Assembly: GCF_017432245.1 (NCBI RefSeq)
Contig: NZ_JAFRJO010000075.1
Coordinates: 1 to 34,408 of the forward strand
Length of the DNA stretch: 34,408 nt
Origin: Methanobrevibacter sp.
GTDB taxonomy: Archaea; Methanobacteriota; Methanobacteria; Methanobacteriales; Methanobacteriaceae
Direction of reading: 5' to 3'
The position numbers and the translations under genes were made by a program. Position 1 is the first letter of the stretch, and the number at the start of each line of letters is the position of its first letter. The notes under the pieces are model-generated. The model was not told the origin of the DNA. It saw only the letters and a list, made by a program, of their open reading frames with translations, and made no database searches. Of the stretch, positions 559 to 7,893 are shown piece after piece.

Positions 559-849
559 ATGGCAAAACTATTTAGCCTTAAATTAAACAACAAAGACATA
601 ATCTATGATGATAAAGTGAAAAAGACTTACGGTGGACAAGGAGTTGTTCGTCTTCATGACAGGTTTCTTGGACAAAGGGCATATGTAGTGTTTCCCATGC
701 AACGCGAAGACAGTGAAGATGGAGTTATCGTTACAGTTGATGAAATACTCAATAGGGGAATTCGCCCAAATAACGACCACACCAGCAAAATATTGTTAGG
801 AAAGGAATATGTAGGTCGCAGATGTCTTCTTGTATTGCAGGAAGCTTAA
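559..849 (+). CDS. Small AbrB/DUF2080-like protein with internal repeat
   Basis: A 96-residue protein of unknown function. The segments around residues 25-46 (GGQGVVRLHDRFLGQRAYVV) and 75-94 (SKILLGKEYVGRRCLLVLQ) resemble each other and the half-motif of AbrB/SpoVT-like and DUF2080 proteins (a short strand, then a K/R-x-hydrophobic-G-x-R turn, then a strand). The protein could therefore be a small DNA-binding or transposon-associated protein, but this is a weak pattern match. The start is supported by GGAG at 546-549. It is the first gene of a same-strand run reaching 3447 and has an unusually long leader. Codon use includes more G/C-ending codons than the housekeeping genes further right. 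Confidence 0.6.
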   Translation: MAKLFSLKLNNKDIIYDDKVKKTYGGQGVVRLHDRFLGQRAYVVFPMQREDSEDGVIVTVDEILNRGIRPNNDHTSKILLGKEYVGRRCLLVLQEA

Positions 850-873
850 TATCTTTATAATGGGGTGATATGT

Positions 874-1329
874 ATGAAAATAGAAAAGATATATGATACA
901 GAAAATAAGGAAATTCTGATTTTTGACTGGTGCATAAACAGGGTCCGCGAATATTTGGAGGACAATGAAATTGCACATAAGTGGCATAAAGCGTATAAGT
1001 ACGGCACCACAGGATGGGTCTTCGTGAATCTCAATAGAAGGACCTACACTCTAGGTGTCGGAGGAATCCGAACAGGGAGGCCTCTTAAGAATCATGCAAT
1101 AACATTCGATGAGTTCAAGCTCATCTTCGGTGTTTATGAGGAATATGGCGAAAGCAAGGCTCTTGATGAGGTCGTAGAGCATGTTTATGCCAAGTATGAG
1201 GGAATGGAAATATTCACCTTCCATAGTGAAAGGTTCGATTTGGAGAAGCCAGAGGGTTGGATTGAACCCCCGAAAAGAGAGAAAAAATATATAAATATGC
1301 ATAAGGATGTGATAAAGGATGATGATTGA
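874..1329 (+). CDS. Unknown protein, 151 aa
   Basis: Family not recognised. The start is placed at the ATG at 874, because GGGGTGAT (862-869) is an excellent ribosome binding site for it; the in-frame GTG at 865 lies inside that site. The protein is soluble, mixed in charge and rich in aromatic residues (WCINRVREYL, TTGWVFVNLNRR). A glycine-rich GVGGIRTGRP stretch is near residue 65, and the C-terminus is basic then acidic. There is no signal peptide, membrane segment or Cys cluster. Its last 11 bases overlap the next gene, which suggests translational coupling. G/C-rich codons such as CTC, GTC and AGG are used more than in the flanking core genes, which would fit recent acquisition. Confidence 0.65.
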   Translation: MKIEKIYDTENKEILIFDWCINRVREYLEDNEIAHKWHKAYKYGTTGWVFVNLNRRTYTLGVGGIRTGRPLKNHAITFDEFKLIFGVYEEYGESKALDEVVEHVYAKYEGMEIFTFHSERFDLEKPEGWIEPPKREKKYINMHKDVIKDDD

Positions 1330-1567
1330 TCCAAAAACTTACTCAGAAAGCATCAGGAATGAGAGCTTGACAGAGCTTAAAAAAGAGAGAAATAGATTAA
1401 TTGAGGAGATTAGGGAATATGATAATGCAATGTATGACAACAATATTGTCATGATTAGCAATCCTGATCCTGAAACCATCTACCTGAACAATCATTTATA
1501 CTTAGCCGAAGTATGCAGGCTGATTGGCGAAAGGCTTTCCCACGGCGACTTGAATTATGAATTCTAA
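1319..1567 (+). CDS. Small helical unknown protein, 82 aa
   Basis: Overlaps the end of the preceding gene by 11 bp, with ATGATG at the start (1319 or 1322 are both possible) and AAAGGATG just upstream. The protein is strongly helical: residues 10-40 are rich in Glu, Arg, Lys and Leu and could form a coiled coil, followed by a second helix at about 55-78. No known domain is recognised. Close coupling to the 151-aa gene suggests the two products act together. Function unknown. Confidence 0.55.
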   Translation: MMIDPKTYSESIRNESLTELKKERNRLIEEIREYDNAMYDNNIVMISNPDPETIYLNNHLYLAEVCRLIGERLSHGDLNYEF

Positions 1568-1641
1568 ATTATTTGCTTCTTTAAAATCTAATTAAAACTT
1601 ATGAGTAATTTTGAAACAAAAAAAGTAAAAGGAGGTATATC

Positions 1642-2025
1642 ATGCACGATTTGACAAACATTAGGAAAAGCTTTGATGAACTTGTATTGAGCAGATTGAG
1701 TGATGAGGTTCTAAAGAGAAACTGCATAGATAAGAATGAGGAACTGATAAGTGAAGAACTGTTAAACAGAGGGGAAATAATTGAAGTTCCCTTTGGAGCA
1801 ATCATTTACTTTTTAGTTCTTGAGGATGGAAATCCTGTATTGTATCTTGAGAAAGCTTCAAGAATGGGTTCAGATGACCTTTATATCATTAATGAAGAGG
1901 GATGCAAATATTATGACATTTATGATGGATATCCTCCTGAAATTAAGGAGAGATATTTCAATCATTTGGAAAATATAAAAGAAACCAGAAACAGATTTAA
2001 TAAAAAAGGAATAAAGGAGGAATAA
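1642..2025 (+). CDS. Unknown 127-aa protein, paralogue of the gene at 3067
   Basis: The start is fixed by a very strong ribosome binding site, GGAGGT at 1631-1636. The protein begins MHDL and has a conserved centre at residues 48-76 (VPFGAIIYFLVLEDG, then PVLYLEKASRM). This aligns closely with the protein at 3067 (IPFGYLTYFLVIEDG, PVVYVNAATRM). The two are almost the same length, 127 and 126 aa, and share the MHDL beginning, so they are paralogues. The alternating hydrophobic strands suggest a small alpha/beta fold of the kind seen in immunity or regulatory proteins, but no named family is recognised. It ends 2 bp before the ADP-ribosylglycohydrolase start and so is very probably co-translated with it. 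Confidence 0.7.
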   Translation: MHDLTNIRKSFDELVLSRLSDEVLKRNCIDKNEELISEELLNRGEIIEVPFGAIIYFLVLEDGNPVLYLEKASRMGSDDLYIINEEGCKYYDIYDGYPPEIKERYFNHLENIKETRNRFNKKGIKEE

Positions 2026-2027
2026 GT

Positions 2028-3044
2028 ATGGATTGCATTAAATCAGGAATTTTCGGAGCGATTGTAGGGGATGCACTTGGACTTCCTGTGCAATTTGAAC
2101 CAAGGAAATTCCGTGACATAGACCCTGTAACTAAAATGACAGGAAACGGTGCATTTGACCTTCCAGCAGGAAGCTGGTCAGATGACTCTTCATTAATTCT
2201 TGCAACAATTGATGGATTGAGCAAAAGTCTAAAGAACAAGGGATATGATGAAGACATGAAATTAAATGAACTCATCGACTATGAAATAATCATGAAGAAC
2301 TTTTCCCTTTGGCTAAATAATGGAAAATTCACACCATACGGCCAGGCCTATGACATAGGTGGTGCCACCATGGATGGAATTCATAGGTATGATAGGGGCA
2401 CTGAGCCAATATTATCTGGAGGAATAGGTGAAAGGGACAATGGAAACGGATCTTTAATGAGAATCCTTCCAATAGCTTTCTTCATCCATTATCTTTCTCA
2501 AAAAAACTCAATTGATGAAGATGAGAAGATGGCAGTTATCCATAACTTGTCTTCACTCACCCATAGGCATAGAAGAAGCCAGTTGTGCTGTGGAATCTAT
2601 GTGAACATTGCTCTTGAATTTATAGAAAAGCGGGACTGTGATTTAAGACTTGAAGAATTGATAGCTAATGGAATAAATAAGTCAAAGGAATATTATTTCA
2701 ATAATCCCTCTTTTAAAAAGGAATTACATCACTTTGATAGAGTATTCTCATTGAATATTCAGAATCTTCCAAGAGATGAGATCAAAAGTGGAGGATATTG
2801 CATATCTTCTCTTGAAGCATCCATTTGGTGTCTATTGAATAATGAAAATTATAGGGACACTATTCTAGAGGCAGTTAATCTTGGATATGATACTGATACA
2901 ACTGCTTGTATTGTTGGAGGATTAGCTGGAATTTACTATGGCTATAATGATATTCCTGCTGAATGGATAAATAAATTGGCTAAATTAGATTATATTGAAG
3001 AATTAGTTAATGATTTTCATTTGGCATTAAGTGAAAATCATTAA
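2028..3044 (+). CDS. ADP-ribosylglycohydrolase family protein
   Basis: A 338-residue protein matching the DraG/ARH family, which removes ADP-ribose from proteins or nucleic acids or hydrolyses O-acetyl-ADP-ribose in a binuclear Mg site. Visible family signatures are GDALG at 14-18, the metal-binding SDDSS at 51-55, GNGSLMRI near 140, THRHRRSQ near 180, and the second metal motif GYDTDTTACIVGGLAG at 286-301, with D288 and D290 as likely ligands. The length is typical and the protein looks intact and cytosolic. The ribosome binding site GGAGGA sits just inside the end of the previous gene. It is flanked by the paralogues at 1642 and 3067, which suggests a dedicated module, but no ADP-ribosyltransferase is obvious next to it. 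Substrate unknown. Confidence 0.9.
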   Translation: MDCIKSGIFGAIVGDALGLPVQFEPRKFRDIDPVTKMTGNGAFDLPAGSWSDDSSLILATIDGLSKSLKNKGYDEDMKLNELIDYEIIMKNFSLWLNNGKFTPYGQAYDIGGATMDGIHRYDRGTEPILSGGIGERDNGNGSLMRILPIAFFIHYLSQKNSIDEDEKMAVIHNLSSLTHRHRRSQLCCGIYVNIALEFIEKRDCDLRLEELIANGINKSKEYYFNNPSFKKELHHFDRVFSLNIQNLPRDEIKSGGYCISSLEASIWCLLNNENYRDTILEAVNLGYDTDTTACIVGGLAGIYYGYNDIPAEWINKLAKLDYIEELVNDFHLALSENH

Positions 3045-3066
3045 AAATTTTAAAAGGGGTGATATG

Positions 3067-3447
3067 ATGCATGATTTGAAAAAACTAGATGAAAAGTTTC
3101 ATGAATTCCTAAAAAACGGATTGAATGCAAAAGATTATAACTTTGATGAAATTGAAATAACTGAAAAGTTGTTGGATGAGAAAAAGGCATTTTACATTCC
3201 ATTTGGATACCTTACCTATTTTTTAGTTATTGAAGATGGAAAACCAGTAGTGTATGTCAATGCAGCTACCAGAATGGATACTGATACAATCTGCTTTGTT
3301 GGTGAGGATTCATACGAATGCTATGATGTATTTTTAGGAAATAATAGGGAAATCAGCGAAAAATATTACAGCCATTCGAAAAAAGTGAAGAAATTCAAAG
3401 ATATAGAATGCTTATATAAATTTAAAAAACAAGAAAAGAGGAAGTAA
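3067..3447 (+). CDS. Unknown 126-aa protein, paralogue of the gene at 1642
   Basis: The start is set at the second ATG of the pair at 3064/3067. GGGGTGAT at 3056-3063 gives better spacing to 3067, and the protein then begins MHDL like its paralogue. The centre (PFGYLTYFLVIEDG, PVVYVNAATRM) is the conserved core. The C-terminus is lysine-rich and differs from the paralogue. It follows the ADP-ribosylglycohydrolase by 22 bp. An in-frame GTG at 3031 overlaps the upstream gene and is less likely. Function unknown. Paired paralogues around one enzyme could reflect duplication of an inhibitor, a target or an adaptor. Confidence 0.7.
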   Translation: MHDLKKLDEKFHEFLKNGLNAKDYNFDEIEITEKLLDEKKAFYIPFGYLTYFLVIEDGKPVVYVNAATRMDTDTICFVGEDSYECYDVFLGNNREISEKYYSHSKKVKKFKDIECLYKFKKQEKRK

Positions 3448-3458
3448 AAAGAAAAATA

Positions 3459-3797
3459 TCATTGATGTTTCTTGTGAGAAAACTCAAGAAACTCAATTCT
3501 ATTCTCTTTTTTGCAGAATGAATAATATAACCTGAATGAATCTGCAACATAAACTTCTTGTTGACCTTTACGGTTACGAGACAAATGCTTGCCAACATCA
3601 GGATTTAGAAAGATTTGTTTGATCTTCTTCAATAATTGAGATAAAACGCTTTTATCCAATTTCTTTAGAGACTTGAAAAAATCTTTCTGATATATCCATT
3701 CTATTATTGAATCGCCTAAAATCTCTTGAAGCACAGCATTAAGCTGACTTTCGTTTCTGATTTTATTAGGGCAAGATGCATAGATCTTGATAATCAC
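3459..3797 (-). CDS. RelE/ParE-type toxin with N-terminal extension
   Basis: The C-terminal 80 residues (from about 33) look like a RelE-family ribosome-dependent mRNA interferase or ParE relative. They contain the basic helix YQKDFFKSLKKLDKS, a second lysine-rich helix, the central strand EVYVADSFRLYYSF and the C-terminal EFLEFSHKKHQ. Residues 1-32 precede the usual RelE start and may be a fused remnant or a wrong start. The reading frame begins with a GTG inside the GGTGAT ribosome binding site at 3793-3798, which is awkward; an internal start would give a standard-size toxin. It lies 16 bp after the 33-codon gene at 3814-3915 and converges with the gene ending at 3447. Confidence 0.7.
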   Translation of the reverse strand: MIIKIYASCPNKIRNESQLNAVLQEILGDSIIEWIYQKDFFKSLKKLDKSVLSQLLKKIKQIFLNPDVGKHLSRNRKGQQEVYVADSFRLYYSFCKKENRIEFLEFSHKKHQ

Positions 3798-3813
3798 CTA
3801 ACAAAACACGACT

Positions 3814-3915
3814 TTAAGTCTTTCTTCCTCCTGAAATATCGATTAGGCGGTATCCGCCTTTATCTAATTCAACCACTCTGTACTTTTTACCAGTTTTTGT
3901 GTTTAAAAAAGACAT
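3814..3915 (-). CDS. Candidate 33-aa antitoxin or leader peptide
   Basis: Reads MSFLNTKTGKKYRVVELD and then KGGYRLIDISGGRKT. GGAG at 3922-3925 lies 6 nt before the ATG, so translation is well supported despite the size. The peptide is basic with two short predicted strands and could be a truncated antitoxin for the RelE-type toxin that follows 16 bp later. I do not recognise its family. A frameshift joining it to the toxin's odd N-terminus is another possibility. Confidence 0.45.
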   Translation of the reverse strand: MSFLNTKTGKKYRVVELDKGGYRLIDISGGRKT

Positions 3916-3935
3916 GATTAACTCCGATATTTTCA

Positions 3936-3985
3936 TGTGGTTTTACAACCACAAAATATACTCTATTTTTGTTATATATAAAAAA
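3936..3985 (-). promoter_or_regulatory. Promoter and hairpin upstream of the RelE-type module
   Basis: On the minus strand a TTTTATATATAAC box (about 3971-3983) is followed by a perfect 7-bp hairpin, TGTGGTT (3936-3942) paired with AACCACA (3947-3953) around a 4-nt loop. The hairpin lies near the expected transcription start and could be an operator or a 5' RNA structure. Confidence 0.45.
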
Positions 3986-4281
3986 GTTTCTAATTTTAAA
4001 AAAAGGATTTTGCTATTGATATCTATTTTTAACTTTTTAGAAAATTTAAAAAAATGAAACTTAAAAATTACTTATTTAAAATCATATTTGATATAAAAAG
4101 TATAAAAATAATTAATTGAAACTTAAATTAAATGAGTTATATATTGAAACTATGATTAAAATATTGATTATAGATATATCCTAAATTAAATTACAAATGA
4201 ATATTTTAGGCATACTATTAAAATTATAACATTATCACTAAATATTTTTAATACTTTATGATATAAGTTATCAAAATATTA
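3986..4281. other. AT-rich divergent intergenic region
   Basis: The space between the leftward toxin module and the rightward histone-like gene. It is very AT-rich with no reading frame and no RNA gene recognised. The promoter elements at its two ends are listed separately. Confidence 0.5.
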
Positions 4282-4316
4282 ATCGATAATTTAATTATTA
4301 TCGATACATTTATATA
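4282..4316 (+). promoter_or_regulatory. Palindromic operator abutting TATA box of the histone-like gene
   Basis: ATCGATAAT at 4282-4290 and ATTATCGAT at 4297-4305 form a perfect inverted repeat with a 6-bp spacer. It is followed directly by a TTTATATAC box at 4309-4317. A protein bound there would cover the BRE, so repression, or activation through TFB recruitment, is plausible. Transcription should start near 4338-4341. Confidence 0.6.
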
Positions 4317-4341
4317 CTACAAAAACAAATATTATATTGTA

Positions 4342-4387
4342 GAAGCAAAGGGGGTGAAAATCACTATACATCAAGCCCATTGCTTTC
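4342..4387 (+). promoter_or_regulatory. Leader hairpin before the histone-like gene
   Basis: GAAGCAAAGGG (4342-4352) pairs with CCCATTGCTTTC (4376-4387): 10 pairs with one bulge and one mismatch. The loop contains GGTGA and ATACATCA. The first hairpin in the leader of the gene at 559 also has ATACATCA in its loop. The hairpin would occlude a GGGGGTGA sequence that is not the ribosome binding site actually used (AAAGGGGGA at about 4398-4406). Confidence 0.4.
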
Positions 4388-4412
4388 TCGATTTATGTAA
4401 AGGGGGACTTAT

Positions 4413-4820
4413 ATGTCAGAAGAAAAATTAGACAAAAGTTTAGAAGAAAACCAAGAAGAAAAATTGCCATTTGCAAAAGCTGAAATCATTAGATTGATGA
4501 AGGAAAATCTTTCAAAAGACAGACAGATCAAGGAAAGAGTCAAGGTTGAAATGAACAATTTCCTTTATGGCATTTTAGTGGATGTCTGCAGTGAACTTGA
4601 AAAATATCCATATGCAACCATTGATTATGAAATGCTTAAGGAATGCATTTATCCTTACACAAACATCAAGCAGATCAATCAGGAAAGAATGAGAATCCTA
4701 ATGCATTTGAATGCAATTAAATCAGATTGTGATGCGCTTGCCATGGATGTTGAAAAGACTCTTAGAATCAAGGACACAACTGAGAAAGATGATTTCTCTC
4801 CATTGACTGGAGAGATATAA
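4413..4820 (+). CDS. Divergent histone-fold protein with C-terminal helix
   Basis: A 135-residue protein. Residues 17-83 fit an archaeal histone fold: [14 protein letters not shown] resembles the first helix (LPIAPxxRIIK) of HMf-type histones, [22 protein letters not shown] fits the long central helix, and [15 protein letters not shown] fits the last loop and helix (the RKTIKAEDIELAV region, with the loop Thr kept but the Arg lost). Around this lie an acidic N-terminal tail and an extra helix of about 40 residues (84-125) with spaced hydrophobics, possibly a coiled coil. Histone variants with coiled-coil helices have been described in prokaryotes; membership is inference. It may bind or bridge DNA or only dimerise with normal histones. 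The start is supported by GGGGGA upstream. It is single-gene with its own operator. Confidence 0.65.
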
Positions 4821-4834
4821 ATTTCATGAATAAG

Positions 4835-5040
4835 AGTAAAAGAGTTATTTAAAAAGGTTTAGTCATTTATCATCCTTAATTTATTAATATTATCATTTTT
4901 CATCTCCTTTTTAATTATTGCTTAATTAAATAATTCCTTACTCTTATTCTTATTTTTTATCTATTTTTTTCAAAATAACAATCACTTATTTATCTATTTT
5001 TTAAGAATTTTTAATCCATTTTCAATAAAAACATCTAAAC
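4835..5040 (+). terminator. T-rich termination region after the histone-like gene
   Basis: Several oligo-T runs (TTTTTCATC, CCTTTTTAATT, TTATTTTTTATC, ATTTTTTTC, ATTTTTTAAG) are spread over 200 bp downstream of the stop, in the transcribed sense. This fits archaeal oligo-T termination. No strong hairpin was seen. Confidence 0.5.
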
Positions 5041-5105
5041 ATTTTAACAAACTATTTTTAACTTAAAATACAAAACATTAATCAGATGTGGAAAAGGTGA
5101 ATGCA

Positions 5106-5978
5106 ATGAATGAAATTATAGACAACTACAATGTTAATGCAGAAATTGAAATAGACAACAGTGAACTTGAAGACATAATGTTAATAGAGCCTGGCATGAT
5201 GACCATTGCAGATGAAGAGGAATTCTTCAGATTATTAAAGGAAGCCAAATTGTTCATCCCAATCCATTGGGAAAAGGAAGAGGTATTCAATATTGAAGAC
5301 CAAAGCGTTGTAGATGTTATCAAGCCTGTGCCTCCACTTGGATTCAATTTCATTTCACTTACCATTAATGATAATGAAAGAGCGCTTGTAGCATTCACAA
5401 GAAAGGAAATAATGAAGGAAATCAAGCTTAAGAAAGACCATATCATAATGAATATGCGTGATCTTGCAAAGATCTTATATGGATTCGGTGATGTCTTCTC
5501 ATCAATCATCATAAATCCTCAAACTGAACATTCCATTATAGTAAACGCTTCCACACTTATAGACCTATTTAAGGAAAAGGCAAAAAATCCATTTATTGCT
5601 TCACTTGAACAGACTTTAGCTACTTTGAAGACCAAATCAGTGAAACTTGACAATCATTACATGTTCTTTATCCGTTCAGAATATGAATTCATGGAAAATG
5701 AGGCTGTAGATGGAATTTTTACAGCAAAAATGCCACTAAGGGCATGCACAGACCCTAATTTCCAATCCAATCTTCCTATATTGCATAAGATAATGATGAT
5801 GGAAGGGCAAAAAATATTGTACACTGGCAAAAGTGAGGAAGTGACTGATTTCAATGTACTGATTGCTCCAGGATGTGAATTCCAAAAGTTCTATGATGAA
5901 GACGGTGACACTTCAGTATGGAGATGCATAAAACAGCCATTCTATGATAATCTTGAAGAAGAGGATGGTGAAGAATGA
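5106..5978 (+). CDS. SseB-family protein with extra C-terminal domain
   Basis: The start is at the ATG at 5106, with AGGTGA at 5095-5100; the upstream GTG at 5088 lies before this site. The product is 290 aa. Residues about 35-160 match the SseB N-terminal domain (PF07179): EEFFRLLKEAKLFIPIHW, a strand ending ALVAFTRKEI, and SSIIINPQTEHSIIV. Two smaller genes at 6960 and 7396 carry the same domain. Residues about 180-285 form a second domain not recognised with confidence. It contains HYMFFIRSEYEF, PLRACTDPNF and FNVLIAPGCEFQKF, the last resembling the final strand motif of ADP-ribosyltransferase toxins, though the ExE pair is not present. The C-terminus is acidic (EEEDGEE). SseB proteins have poorly known roles, named from serine sensitivity in E. 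coli. Confidence 0.75.
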   Translation: MNEIIDNYNVNAEIEIDNSELEDIMLIEPGMMTIADEEEFFRLLKEAKLFIPIHWEKEEVFNIEDQSVVDVIKPVPPLGFNFISLTINDNERALVAFTRKEIMKEIKLKKDHIIMNMRDLAKILYGFGDVFSSIIINPQTEHSIIVNASTLIDLFKEKAKNPFIASLEQTLATLKTKSVKLDNHYMFFIRSEYEFMENEAVDGIFTAKMPLRACTDPNFQSNLPILHKIMMMEGQKILYTGKSEEVTDFNVLIAPGCEFQKFYDEDGDTSVWRCIKQPFYDNLEEEDGEE

Positions 5979-6027
5979 TTAGATGATGATCTTAACTTCA
6001 TTCATCAAATTTTTTTTAATTTAAATT

Positions 6028-6303
6028 TTAAAACAATCTATAATTATTTTTTCTGGGAATTATATCGATTATTTCAATGCTCTGATTTCTTTCTGATACA
6101 TAAAAGATAATCCTATAGTCCCCTACCTTTGCTCTTTGACATTTAGGGCATTTATTGCTTTTCAATTCTTTAAAATTAGAATTATATGGATTTTTTAAAA
6201 TTTCCAAATACTTTTTATTAATTCTCAATAATAATTTTTTATCGTTTTTATGCTTATAAAGAAATTTCGCTGCCTTTTCATGTTCAAATAATTTATAACT
6301 CAT
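6028..6303 (-). CDS. RelE-family toxin with CPKC motif
   Basis: A 91-aa protein of the RelE/ParE toxin superfamily, probably an mRNA interferase acting on ribosomes. Visible features are the N-terminal KLFEHEKAAKFLYKH, a helical centre, the typical AKVGDYRIIFYVSE strand pair with the conserved Arg, and a C-terminal EIIDIIPRKNNYR. Just before the core strand is KCPKC, two cysteines that could bind a metal, in the loop where other RelE proteins have a short basic segment. The ATG overlaps the antitoxin stop by 4 bp (ATGA, 6300-6303), a hallmark of a coupled toxin-antitoxin pair. The pair is inserted leftward between rightward SseB-family genes. Confidence 0.85.
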   Translation of the reverse strand: MSYKLFEHEKAAKFLYKHKNDKKLLLRINKKYLEILKNPYNSNFKELKSNKCPKCQRAKVGDYRIIFYVSERNQSIEIIDIIPRKNNYRLF

Positions 6304-6563
6304 TTTTTTAACTCAAGTTCCAGTTTATTGATTCTTTCTTCTAAACTTTCTAGAGTTAATTCTTTAACATTTTCTAAATTGCCGTTTTCGAATTTTTCTA
6401 TTTCTTCATTATAAAATTCTGCTTCTTCATCACTGAATTCTTCATGAGTATAGTAATATTCTATTAAAAAACTTATAACATCATTAAAAGTATCATTTTT
6501 AGAAGCTAATTTTGATAAAGAATTATGGTTGGCTTTAGAGATTTTAATTGTTTTAGTCATCAT
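6300..6563 (-). CDS. Antitoxin of the RelE pair
   Basis: An 87-aa (or 86-aa, because two ATGs are adjacent) protein with an N-terminal strand-helix-helix region (TKTIKISKANHNSLSKLA, then NDTFNDVISFLIEYY) like ribbon-helix-helix/VapB-type DNA-binding antitoxins. A long acidic helical C-terminus (residues 40-87) would wrap the basic toxin. It is the first gene of the two-gene operon, and the perfect operator at 6576-6598 lies 13 bp upstream. It is expected to repress its own promoter and neutralise the toxin. Confidence 0.8.
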   Translation of the reverse strand: MMTKTIKISKANHNSLSKLASKNDTFNDVISFLIEYYYTHEEFSDEEAEFYNEEIEKFENGNLENVKELTLESLEERINKLELELKK

Positions 6564-6575
6564 AATACCACATAA

Positions 6576-6598
6576 TATAGTATACTCAGTATACTATA
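6576..6598 (-). promoter_or_regulatory. Perfect 11-bp inverted-repeat operator of the toxin-antitoxin pair
   Basis: TATAGTATACT (6576-6586) and AGTATACTATA (6588-6598) are exact reverse complements with one base between. The element is 13 bp before the antitoxin start and contains TATA-like sequence. It is most likely both core promoter and autoregulatory site for the antitoxin. Confidence 0.75.
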
Positions 6599-6959
6599 AA
6601 AAACTTTCTAAAAAATCTAAAAGAATAGAAATGAAAAATTAATATGCTTTAAATTTCAATTAAAAATTTTATAGATGCCCATATATAAATTAAACTATTT
6701 ATTAAGCTTTAAATAATATTATGACATGAAGATTGACTTAAAATTAAAAAATAATAAAAAATAATAAATTGATTTGAAAATAGAAAATTATATGAAAATA
6801 AAAAATTAATATGAAAATGAAAAATTTAAAACTAATTTGAATCTTTATTTAAATTTAAAACCTTGCTTGGATGGAAACCATTTAGCATATAAATAAATAT
6901 AATTGGTTTCATAAATATGATTAAATAAATAATATAATTAAAATAAATTACTGATTGAA
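6599..6959 (+). promoter_or_regulatory. AT-rich region with promoter for the SseB-like pair
   Basis: Mostly A/T with near-repeats of GAAAAT and AAAAATTAATAT at 6775-6830. GAAACCA (6874-6880) and TGGTTTC (6904-6910) form an inverted repeat around a candidate TATA box, CATATAAATAAA (6886-6897). A second candidate, AATATAAT near 6931-6938, would place the start of transcription at about the ATG at 6960, giving a leaderless mRNA. The choice between the two cannot be made from sequence. Confidence 0.4.
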
Positions 6960-7367
6960 ATGACTACACTAAACAACAAAAAGCTAAAGAAACTATTGAA
7001 ATCAAAGTCAAGAGTTAAGATAGAGCAGAACCCTGACTTGTTCTATAAGGAATTCTTAAAATCAGAAGTCTTTGTCCCAGTTATTGCAATGGAAGATGAA
7101 GAATCATTAAGCGATGGAGACACACTTGACTTGCAGATTGGCTTCTTTGATGAGGAAAACGGAGACCGCAACATATACCTGTTTACAGATACAAACGAAT
7201 TGGAAAAGGCAGGATACCAAATCAAGTCAATAGCTGTAAATGTTATGGAACTCTCAATCATATTGGCACAGTTTGACATTGATTTCAATCATATTGTGAT
7301 AAATCCATACAGCGTTGATTCATATAAGATAGACTTTGATGAATTTTTAGAGAAAAATAACTTTTAG
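6960..7367 (+). CDS. SseB-family protein, 135 aa
   Basis: A single SseB N-terminal domain (PF07179): LFYKEFLKSEVFVPVIAM at residues 27-44, an acidic loop, NIYLFTDTNELEKAGY, AVNVMELSIILAQFDI, and NHIVINPYSVDSYKIDFDEFL near the end. It is related to the genes at 5106 and 7396. The start has no clear ribosome binding site, so the transcript may be leaderless. Its basic N-terminus (NNKKLKKLLKSKSRVK) differs from the paralogues. It is 28 bp upstream of the next SseB gene and probably in the same operon. Role unknown. Confidence 0.75.
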   Translation: MTTLNNKKLKKLLKSKSRVKIEQNPDLFYKEFLKSEVFVPVIAMEDEESLSDGDTLDLQIGFFDEENGDRNIYLFTDTNELEKAGYQIKSIAVNVMELSIILAQFDIDFNHIVINPYSVDSYKIDFDEFLEKNNF

Positions 7368-7395
7368 ATATTAATTCTTAATTTTAGTGATAAAA

Positions 7396-7893
7396 ATGAG
7401 CATACTCTATAATGAAAAACTTGAAGAATTGATGAAAATACAATCAGAAATGAGCGAAGAGGAAAATGAACACTTCCTAAATGAATTCAGAAAATCAGAA
7501 CTGCTGGTTCCTCTTCAGATAGAGCTCGACTCACTAGACCTTGAAAACATGAATCTAGAGGGATTGAATGAAATCAATAAGGAAGTCAAGTTTCACTTAA
7601 AGTCATTTGTAGGCCCAAATGGAATCAAAGTCATACCTATTTTTACAGATGAGGAGAACATTCATGATGTACAATTGAACACAACAGTTGGATCCTTGTT
7701 CATGAGAGACTTGTACAAGTCCATAGTACCAATTCAAGACAGCTTTGATCAAATCATCATTAATCCAAGTGCAGAAAATGAATACAAGATAAGCATTGAT
7801 GATTTCTTAAATCTCTTTGATGAGGAAAGGGAATTTGAAGACATGATGAAAGAGATTGAAGAGGAAATGCTTGAAGATGAAAATATGGATTAA
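7396..7893 (+). CDS. SseB-family protein with acidic tail
   Basis: The start is at the ATG at 7396, with AGTGAT (7386-7391) as ribosome binding site; the GTG at 7387 lies inside that site. The product is 165 aa. The SseB-like signatures are EHFLNEFRKSELLVPLQI, VIPIFTDEENI, SLFMRDLYKSI and DQIIINPSAENEYKISIDDFL. The C-terminal 25 residues are strongly acidic (EEREFEDMMKEIEEEMLEDE). It lacks the extra domain of the gene at 5106. Co-oriented with, and 28 bp behind, the gene at 6960. Function unknown; such small paralogues often act as adaptors. Confidence 0.75.
   Translation: MSILYNEKLEELMKIQSEMSEEENEHFLNEFRKSELLVPLQIELDSLDLENMNLEGLNEINKEVKFHLKSFVGPNGIKVIPIFTDEENIHDVQLNTTVGSLFMRDLYKSIVPIQDSFDQIIINPSAENEYKISIDDFLNLFDEEREFEDMMKEIEEEMLEDENMD

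Follow-up and report, generated by a model that had tools for sequence, protein, structure and literature searches.

Does an ADP-ribosylglycohydrolase (ARG) that is enclosed by two copies of a small protein family act together with them, and if so, what would such an arrangement serve? The question is raised by a window of 34,408 nucleotides (the whole stretch of DNA that was analysed) from the archaeon Methanobrevibacter sp. In this window, P1 (127 aa, 1642-2025, + strand) is followed after 2 bp by ARG (338 aa, 2028-3044, + strand, motifs intact), and ARG in turn by P2 (+ strand, ending at 3447), which begins at an ATG at 3064 or 3067 and comprises 127 or 126 aa depending on the choice. A ribosome-binding context, AAAAGGGGTGATATG, lies upstream of the P2 ATG; an alternative GTG start at 3031 gives 138 aa and overlaps ARG. 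P1 and P2, defined by open reading frame calls and by their paralogy, have 42 of 119 residues in common (35%, E=4e-24 in a single comparison), retrieve one another at E=7e-19 in a whole-genome search that found no further copies in the window genome, and both contain MHDL, PFG-x3-YFLV-x-EDG-x-PV-x-Y, and A-x-RM, a resemblance far beyond chance. The first-pass annotation had described paralogues flanking the enzyme at 2 and 22 bp, and this description is borne out by positions, identity, and motifs, with the second distance becoming 19 bp if P2 starts at 3064. Judged from their sequences, P1, ARG, and P2 all look functional.

The assignment of the central gene is clear. In a Pfam scan, ARG matches PF03747 with E=3.2e-65 (221 bits, cut-off 26.2 bits), and the motifs GDALG at 14, WSDDSS at 50, THRH at 178, and GYDTDTTA at 286 are present, with the metal-binding acidic and TH motifs retained. 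The gene is under purifying selection (dN/dS 0.09–0.26), and glycohydrolase activity can be predicted for its product. The nearest solved relative is Lmo0067, an ARG from Listeria (PDB code 8za7, E=1.3e-63 over 323 residues), which is, however, bacterial.

The flanking proteins are of a different kind. Neither P1 nor P2 gave anything significant in Pfam, NCBIfam, PADLOC, or PHROGs. To all four libraries the small family is new, in keeping with its earlier description as unknown. A match of P2 to PF15983 (E=0.0024, under its cut-off, spanning 31 residues) was set aside, and kinship of P1 and P2 to SseB was rejected after profile comparison (hhalign probability 2.3%). The AlphaFold2 models of P1 (pLDDT 86, pTM 0.81) and P2 (pLDDT 86.5, pTM 0.80) concur in placing a five-strand meander between an N-terminal and a C-terminal helix, an arrangement for which Foldseek returned no significant match in the PDB or BFVD. 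The TY-chaperone fold has been described as a five-stranded meander with two helices on one side and similarity to CesT/YbjN (PMC9503650), and the predicted order of elements in P1 and P2, which is all that was compared, is compatible with this description.

A profile search placed the small family in 21 of 152 Methanobacteriota genomes, which belong to only two genera of the Methanobacteriaceae; weak matches in G026, G050, G066, and G129 (with E between 0.006 and 1e-7 according to the query) were left out of the count. No member was found in the scans made of viral contigs, phages, and plasmids. In the genus of the window, all seven clear family genes (two in the window, and one each in G019, G021, G029, G031, and G034) touch a single ARG clade. 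For the sister genus, the flanks fetched around about 12 family genes, spread over 11 genomes, contain no ARG (in G094 they extend only a few kb). Several of these genes stand alone between genes on the opposite strand, others are coupled to zinc-ribbon, TPR, or HIRAN proteins or to the zinc-ribbon protein c39, which abuts the family gene in G099, and two copies contain stops. The possibility raised at the outset, that the paralogues occur widely without the enzyme, thus applies in part, while the tie at genus level holds. Because the sister-genus genes are free of ARG and often coupled to zinc-ribbon or TPR proteins, the role of the small family cannot depend on ARG. The relatives compared are genome bins, many of them incomplete, so that absence from any single relative is weak evidence. 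G069 and G086 are the only genomes in which macro-domain genes share a contig with a family gene, a link that was judged coincidental. In G079 of the sister genus (L129:1-16000), degraded fragments of one ARG and one small-family gene lie 6 kb apart on the same contig, and this remnant pair is the sole hint of linkage outside the genus of the window.

Where the two genes do meet, their geometry is tight. In six genomes, ARG is immediately preceded by a family gene, at distances of 2, -4, -4, 0, 3, and 1 bp, and because of this spacing the pair looks like a case of translational coupling. In the family tree, P1 groups with the genes of G031 and G019 (support 98/100), and P2 is closest to those of G034 and G029 in a grouping that is not well supported; the slot directly upstream of ARG therefore holds a P1-type protein in some species and a P2-like protein in others. 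Other occupants are also seen. In the near relative G020, the slot of P2 holds an SseB-domain gene, and in G033 the P1 slot is taken by c39, which is unrelated to P1. The second ARG clade of the genus, at another conserved locus, has no small gene. The proposal of an undescribed module therefore survives as a genus-level coupling to one ARG clade, but not as a defined sandwich, since the order P1-ARG-P2 occurs in the window genome only.

The DNA around this slot has been exchanged piecemeal. Between the window and G021, identity is 88–94% over 1450-2050 and 73–84% over ARG, and dS rises from 0.08 in P1 to 0.91 in ARG; compared with G031, identity peaks at 93–98% over 1150-1600. This pattern implies that P1 and the two genes upstream of it moved between species without ARG. 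An in-frame stop makes P1 a pseudogene in G021, where ARG itself is intact and adjoined by an SseB remnant; an SseB gene directly follows ARG in G031, G033, G020, and G029. The two upstream genes are c14 (874..1329, + strand), an unknown protein of 151 aa present in 4 of 139 genomes, and c15 (1319..1567, + strand), an unknown protein of 82 aa that overlaps c14 and is present in 22 of 139 genomes, for the most part not near ARG. In G028, c14 and c15 are fused into one 238-aa protein (L142:1492-2208), which is evidence that they work together. The fusion lies at a place without ARG or a small gene, and the pair is a separate unit rather than part of the module to which it had been provisionally assigned. 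The first gene of the operon-like run, c3 (559..849, + strand), has a weak DUF2080 match (PF09853, E=0.0047, under cut-off); its product may be AbrB-like, a weak suggestion drawn from a repeated KVKK-x-YGGQG motif. Homologues of c3 also occur in L089-L094, and wherever this end of the locus can be seen in the other genomes, one of them comes first. The first-pass annotation had offered a reading in terms of conflict or immunity, which the mosaic, modular make-up of the locus renders reasonable. Its other suggestion, control of ADP-ribosylation, is not supported, and in G021 the P1 pseudogene adjoins an ARG that has stayed intact.

A Pfam scan found no ADP-ribosyltransferase (ART) domain in the proteins encoded in 559-5978, and PF03496, the only ART family searched genome-wide, is not found in the window genome, which is 87% complete. 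Congeners do carry such domains. In G031 and G029, PF03496 domains with the R, STS, and E residues present are fused to the phage head protein Phage_Mu_F (L135:1450-3024 and L138:1450-3006, - strand), and in L135 a portal gene lies just upstream of the fusion. PF03496 also matches in G017, as an ART-only piece (L136:1468-2208, - strand), and in G027. Since prophages of four congeners carry ART domains, a plausible opponent for ARG exists. The genomes with the ARG clade and those with an ART prophage overlap only partly, and a close-pattern scan found no virus with the window ARG or the prophage ART.

Systems centred on ARG that lack a linked ART and include SseB and peptide-binding chaperones were predicted in 2022 to act against ADP-ribosylation by viruses (PMC9503650, section 3.8). 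As in these systems, the window locus combines an intact ARG with SseB-domain neighbours and no linked ART, and it has small accessory proteins of predicted alpha+beta structure and a mosaic gene content. Unlike them, it is archaeal, its accessory family is different and lineage-restricted, with no detectable TY-chaperone match, and Pfam scans of the operon and its immediate neighbours gave no Nudix or WYL regulator and no phosphatase, components that about half of the systems described there possess (PMC9503650). The arrangement fits best among the ARG-centred conflict loci, as a variant with a putative function.

The explanation that we tentatively prefer is that of a recombining, ARG-centred accessory operon without an ART of its own, which would undo foreign ADP-ribosylation with the help of P1 and P2 as exchangeable subunits. 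According to this proposal, a virus or rival would ADP-ribosylate proteins of the archaeal cell, and ARG would hydrolyse ADP-ribose off the modified proteins. P1 or P2 would be produced along with ARG by translational coupling, and might bind either ARG or its modified clients, much as has been proposed for SseB and the TY chaperones in the ARG systems of bacteria. Duplication (P1 and P2) and exchange (SseB for P2, a zinc-ribbon protein for P1) could then shift the clients or opponents that are covered. Both viral targets of ARG and physical contact between ARG and P1 or P2 are presumed elements of this scheme. The intact ARG under purifying selection, the coupling geometry, the association with SseB, and the mosaic exchange count in favour of the accessory operon. 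Counting against it are the persistence of ARG in G021 beside the P1 pseudogene, the joint travel of P1 with c14-c15 and not with ARG, the ARG-free family in the sister genus, the lack of a Nudix/WYL regulator or phosphatase, the lack of a fold match or of a profile relation to SseB, and the merely partial overlap between genomes with the ARG clade and those with an ART prophage. A bolder version, which we regard as improbable, holds that P1 and P2 form a new accessory family with a fold outside the PDB that delivers an archaeal ARG to proteins modified by ARTs carried in virus particles, and that this would be the first archaeal repair system for virus-made ADP-ribosylation, diversified by gene exchange. 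The predictions of host systems that reverse ADP-ribosylation by viruses come from the genomes of bacteria, and the literature searched contains no test of one in archaea; the window offers a compact test case, with an intact ARG, a co-translated partner in natural variants (P1, P2, SseB, and zinc-ribbon), and the prophage ARTs of the genus as candidate opponents. Should the ARG-based reading fail, the small family would still stand as a group of gut-methanogen proteins that recombines and awaits characterisation.

Only modestly less likely than the accessory operon, although still on the doubtful side, is a heterogeneous immunity cluster in which ARG, c14, c15, P1, P2, SseB, c39, and c7 are separate antidotes against different foreign toxins and do not cooperate. 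ARG is known as an enzymatic immunity protein, Imm-ARG (PMC3482391), and the top curated NCBIfam model for the window enzyme, with which it shares the ARG domain, is the immunity protein Tri1 (NF041672). The swapping of single genes between relatives fits such a cluster as well as it fits the accessory operon, and the small family stands alone elsewhere and decays to pseudogenes. Against this, ARG scores 143 bits with NF041672, far under the equivalog cut-off of 490, and the profile aligns to it from position 69 onward only, so that the N-terminal extension of Tri1 is absent; in contrast to Tri1, no ART toxin gene adjoins it either. Scans of the neighbouring proteins turned up neither a toxin gene nor a secretion component, nor any of the known Imm, SUKH, or SuFu domains, and the conserved coupling at -4 to +3 bp favours joint use with ARG. 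The differing gene content of close relatives would also suit a polyimmunity locus, but several known immunity domains in tandem were not found, ARG being the sole domain of immunity type.

ARG and the small family could also be chance neighbours with unrelated jobs, their adjacency being one event inherited at one locus. We consider this rather unlikely, yet it has to be taken seriously, as the association with ARG is limited to a single locus of a single genus: every ARG-linked case falls in a single ARG clade, the sister genus has no such link, and P1 has recombined without ARG. Chance does not readily account for members of both the P1 and P2 types filling the slot directly upstream of ARG, for a near-zero gap retained through heavy divergence, or for the second copy on the other side of ARG in the window. 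Least convincing is an endogenous switch resembling dinitrogenase reductase-activating glycohydrolase (DraG), in which ARG would reverse regulatory ADP-ribosylation by the cell's own transferase under the control of P1 and P2: ARG has the same fold family and motifs, and coupled small proteins could behave like PII-type regulators, but the enzyme scores 89 bits with TIGR02662 against an equivalog cut-off of 337, the DraT partner (PF07357) gave 0 matches in 19 genomes (as did the control genomes), no nitrogenase genes occur in the scanned neighbourhood, and a patchy, mosaic distribution is unlike that of a housekeeping switch. We regard the DraG-like reading as very improbable.

Downstream of P2, the window continues with a ParE/RelE-like toxin gene that is convergent with P2 (3459..3797, - strand; PF05016, E=3.3e-4, just under cut-off), and with three SseB-domain proteins on the + strand, at 5088..5978 (SseB N-terminal domain, PF07179, E=6e-13), 6960..7367, and 7387..7893. 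Three of the four SseB genes of the window genome thus lie within 3 kb (5088-7893). The region is shared with G020, where the ParE/RelE-like gene is 96% and SseB 93% identical at protein level; the toxin-like gene at 3459-3797 has no obvious antitoxin partner adjoining it. Between the SseB genes, two overlapping small genes (6028-6563, - strand) look like a RelE/HigB-type toxin with its antitoxin. In an ARG-adjacent SseB protein (L091:8603-9580), the SseB domain is followed by an uncharacterised conserved domain (residues 148-325). This domain was considered as a linked ART and discarded, as no ART domain emerged when the protein was scanned with Pfam. It also ends TPR-containing or longer proteins of the sister genus (L086 and L088).
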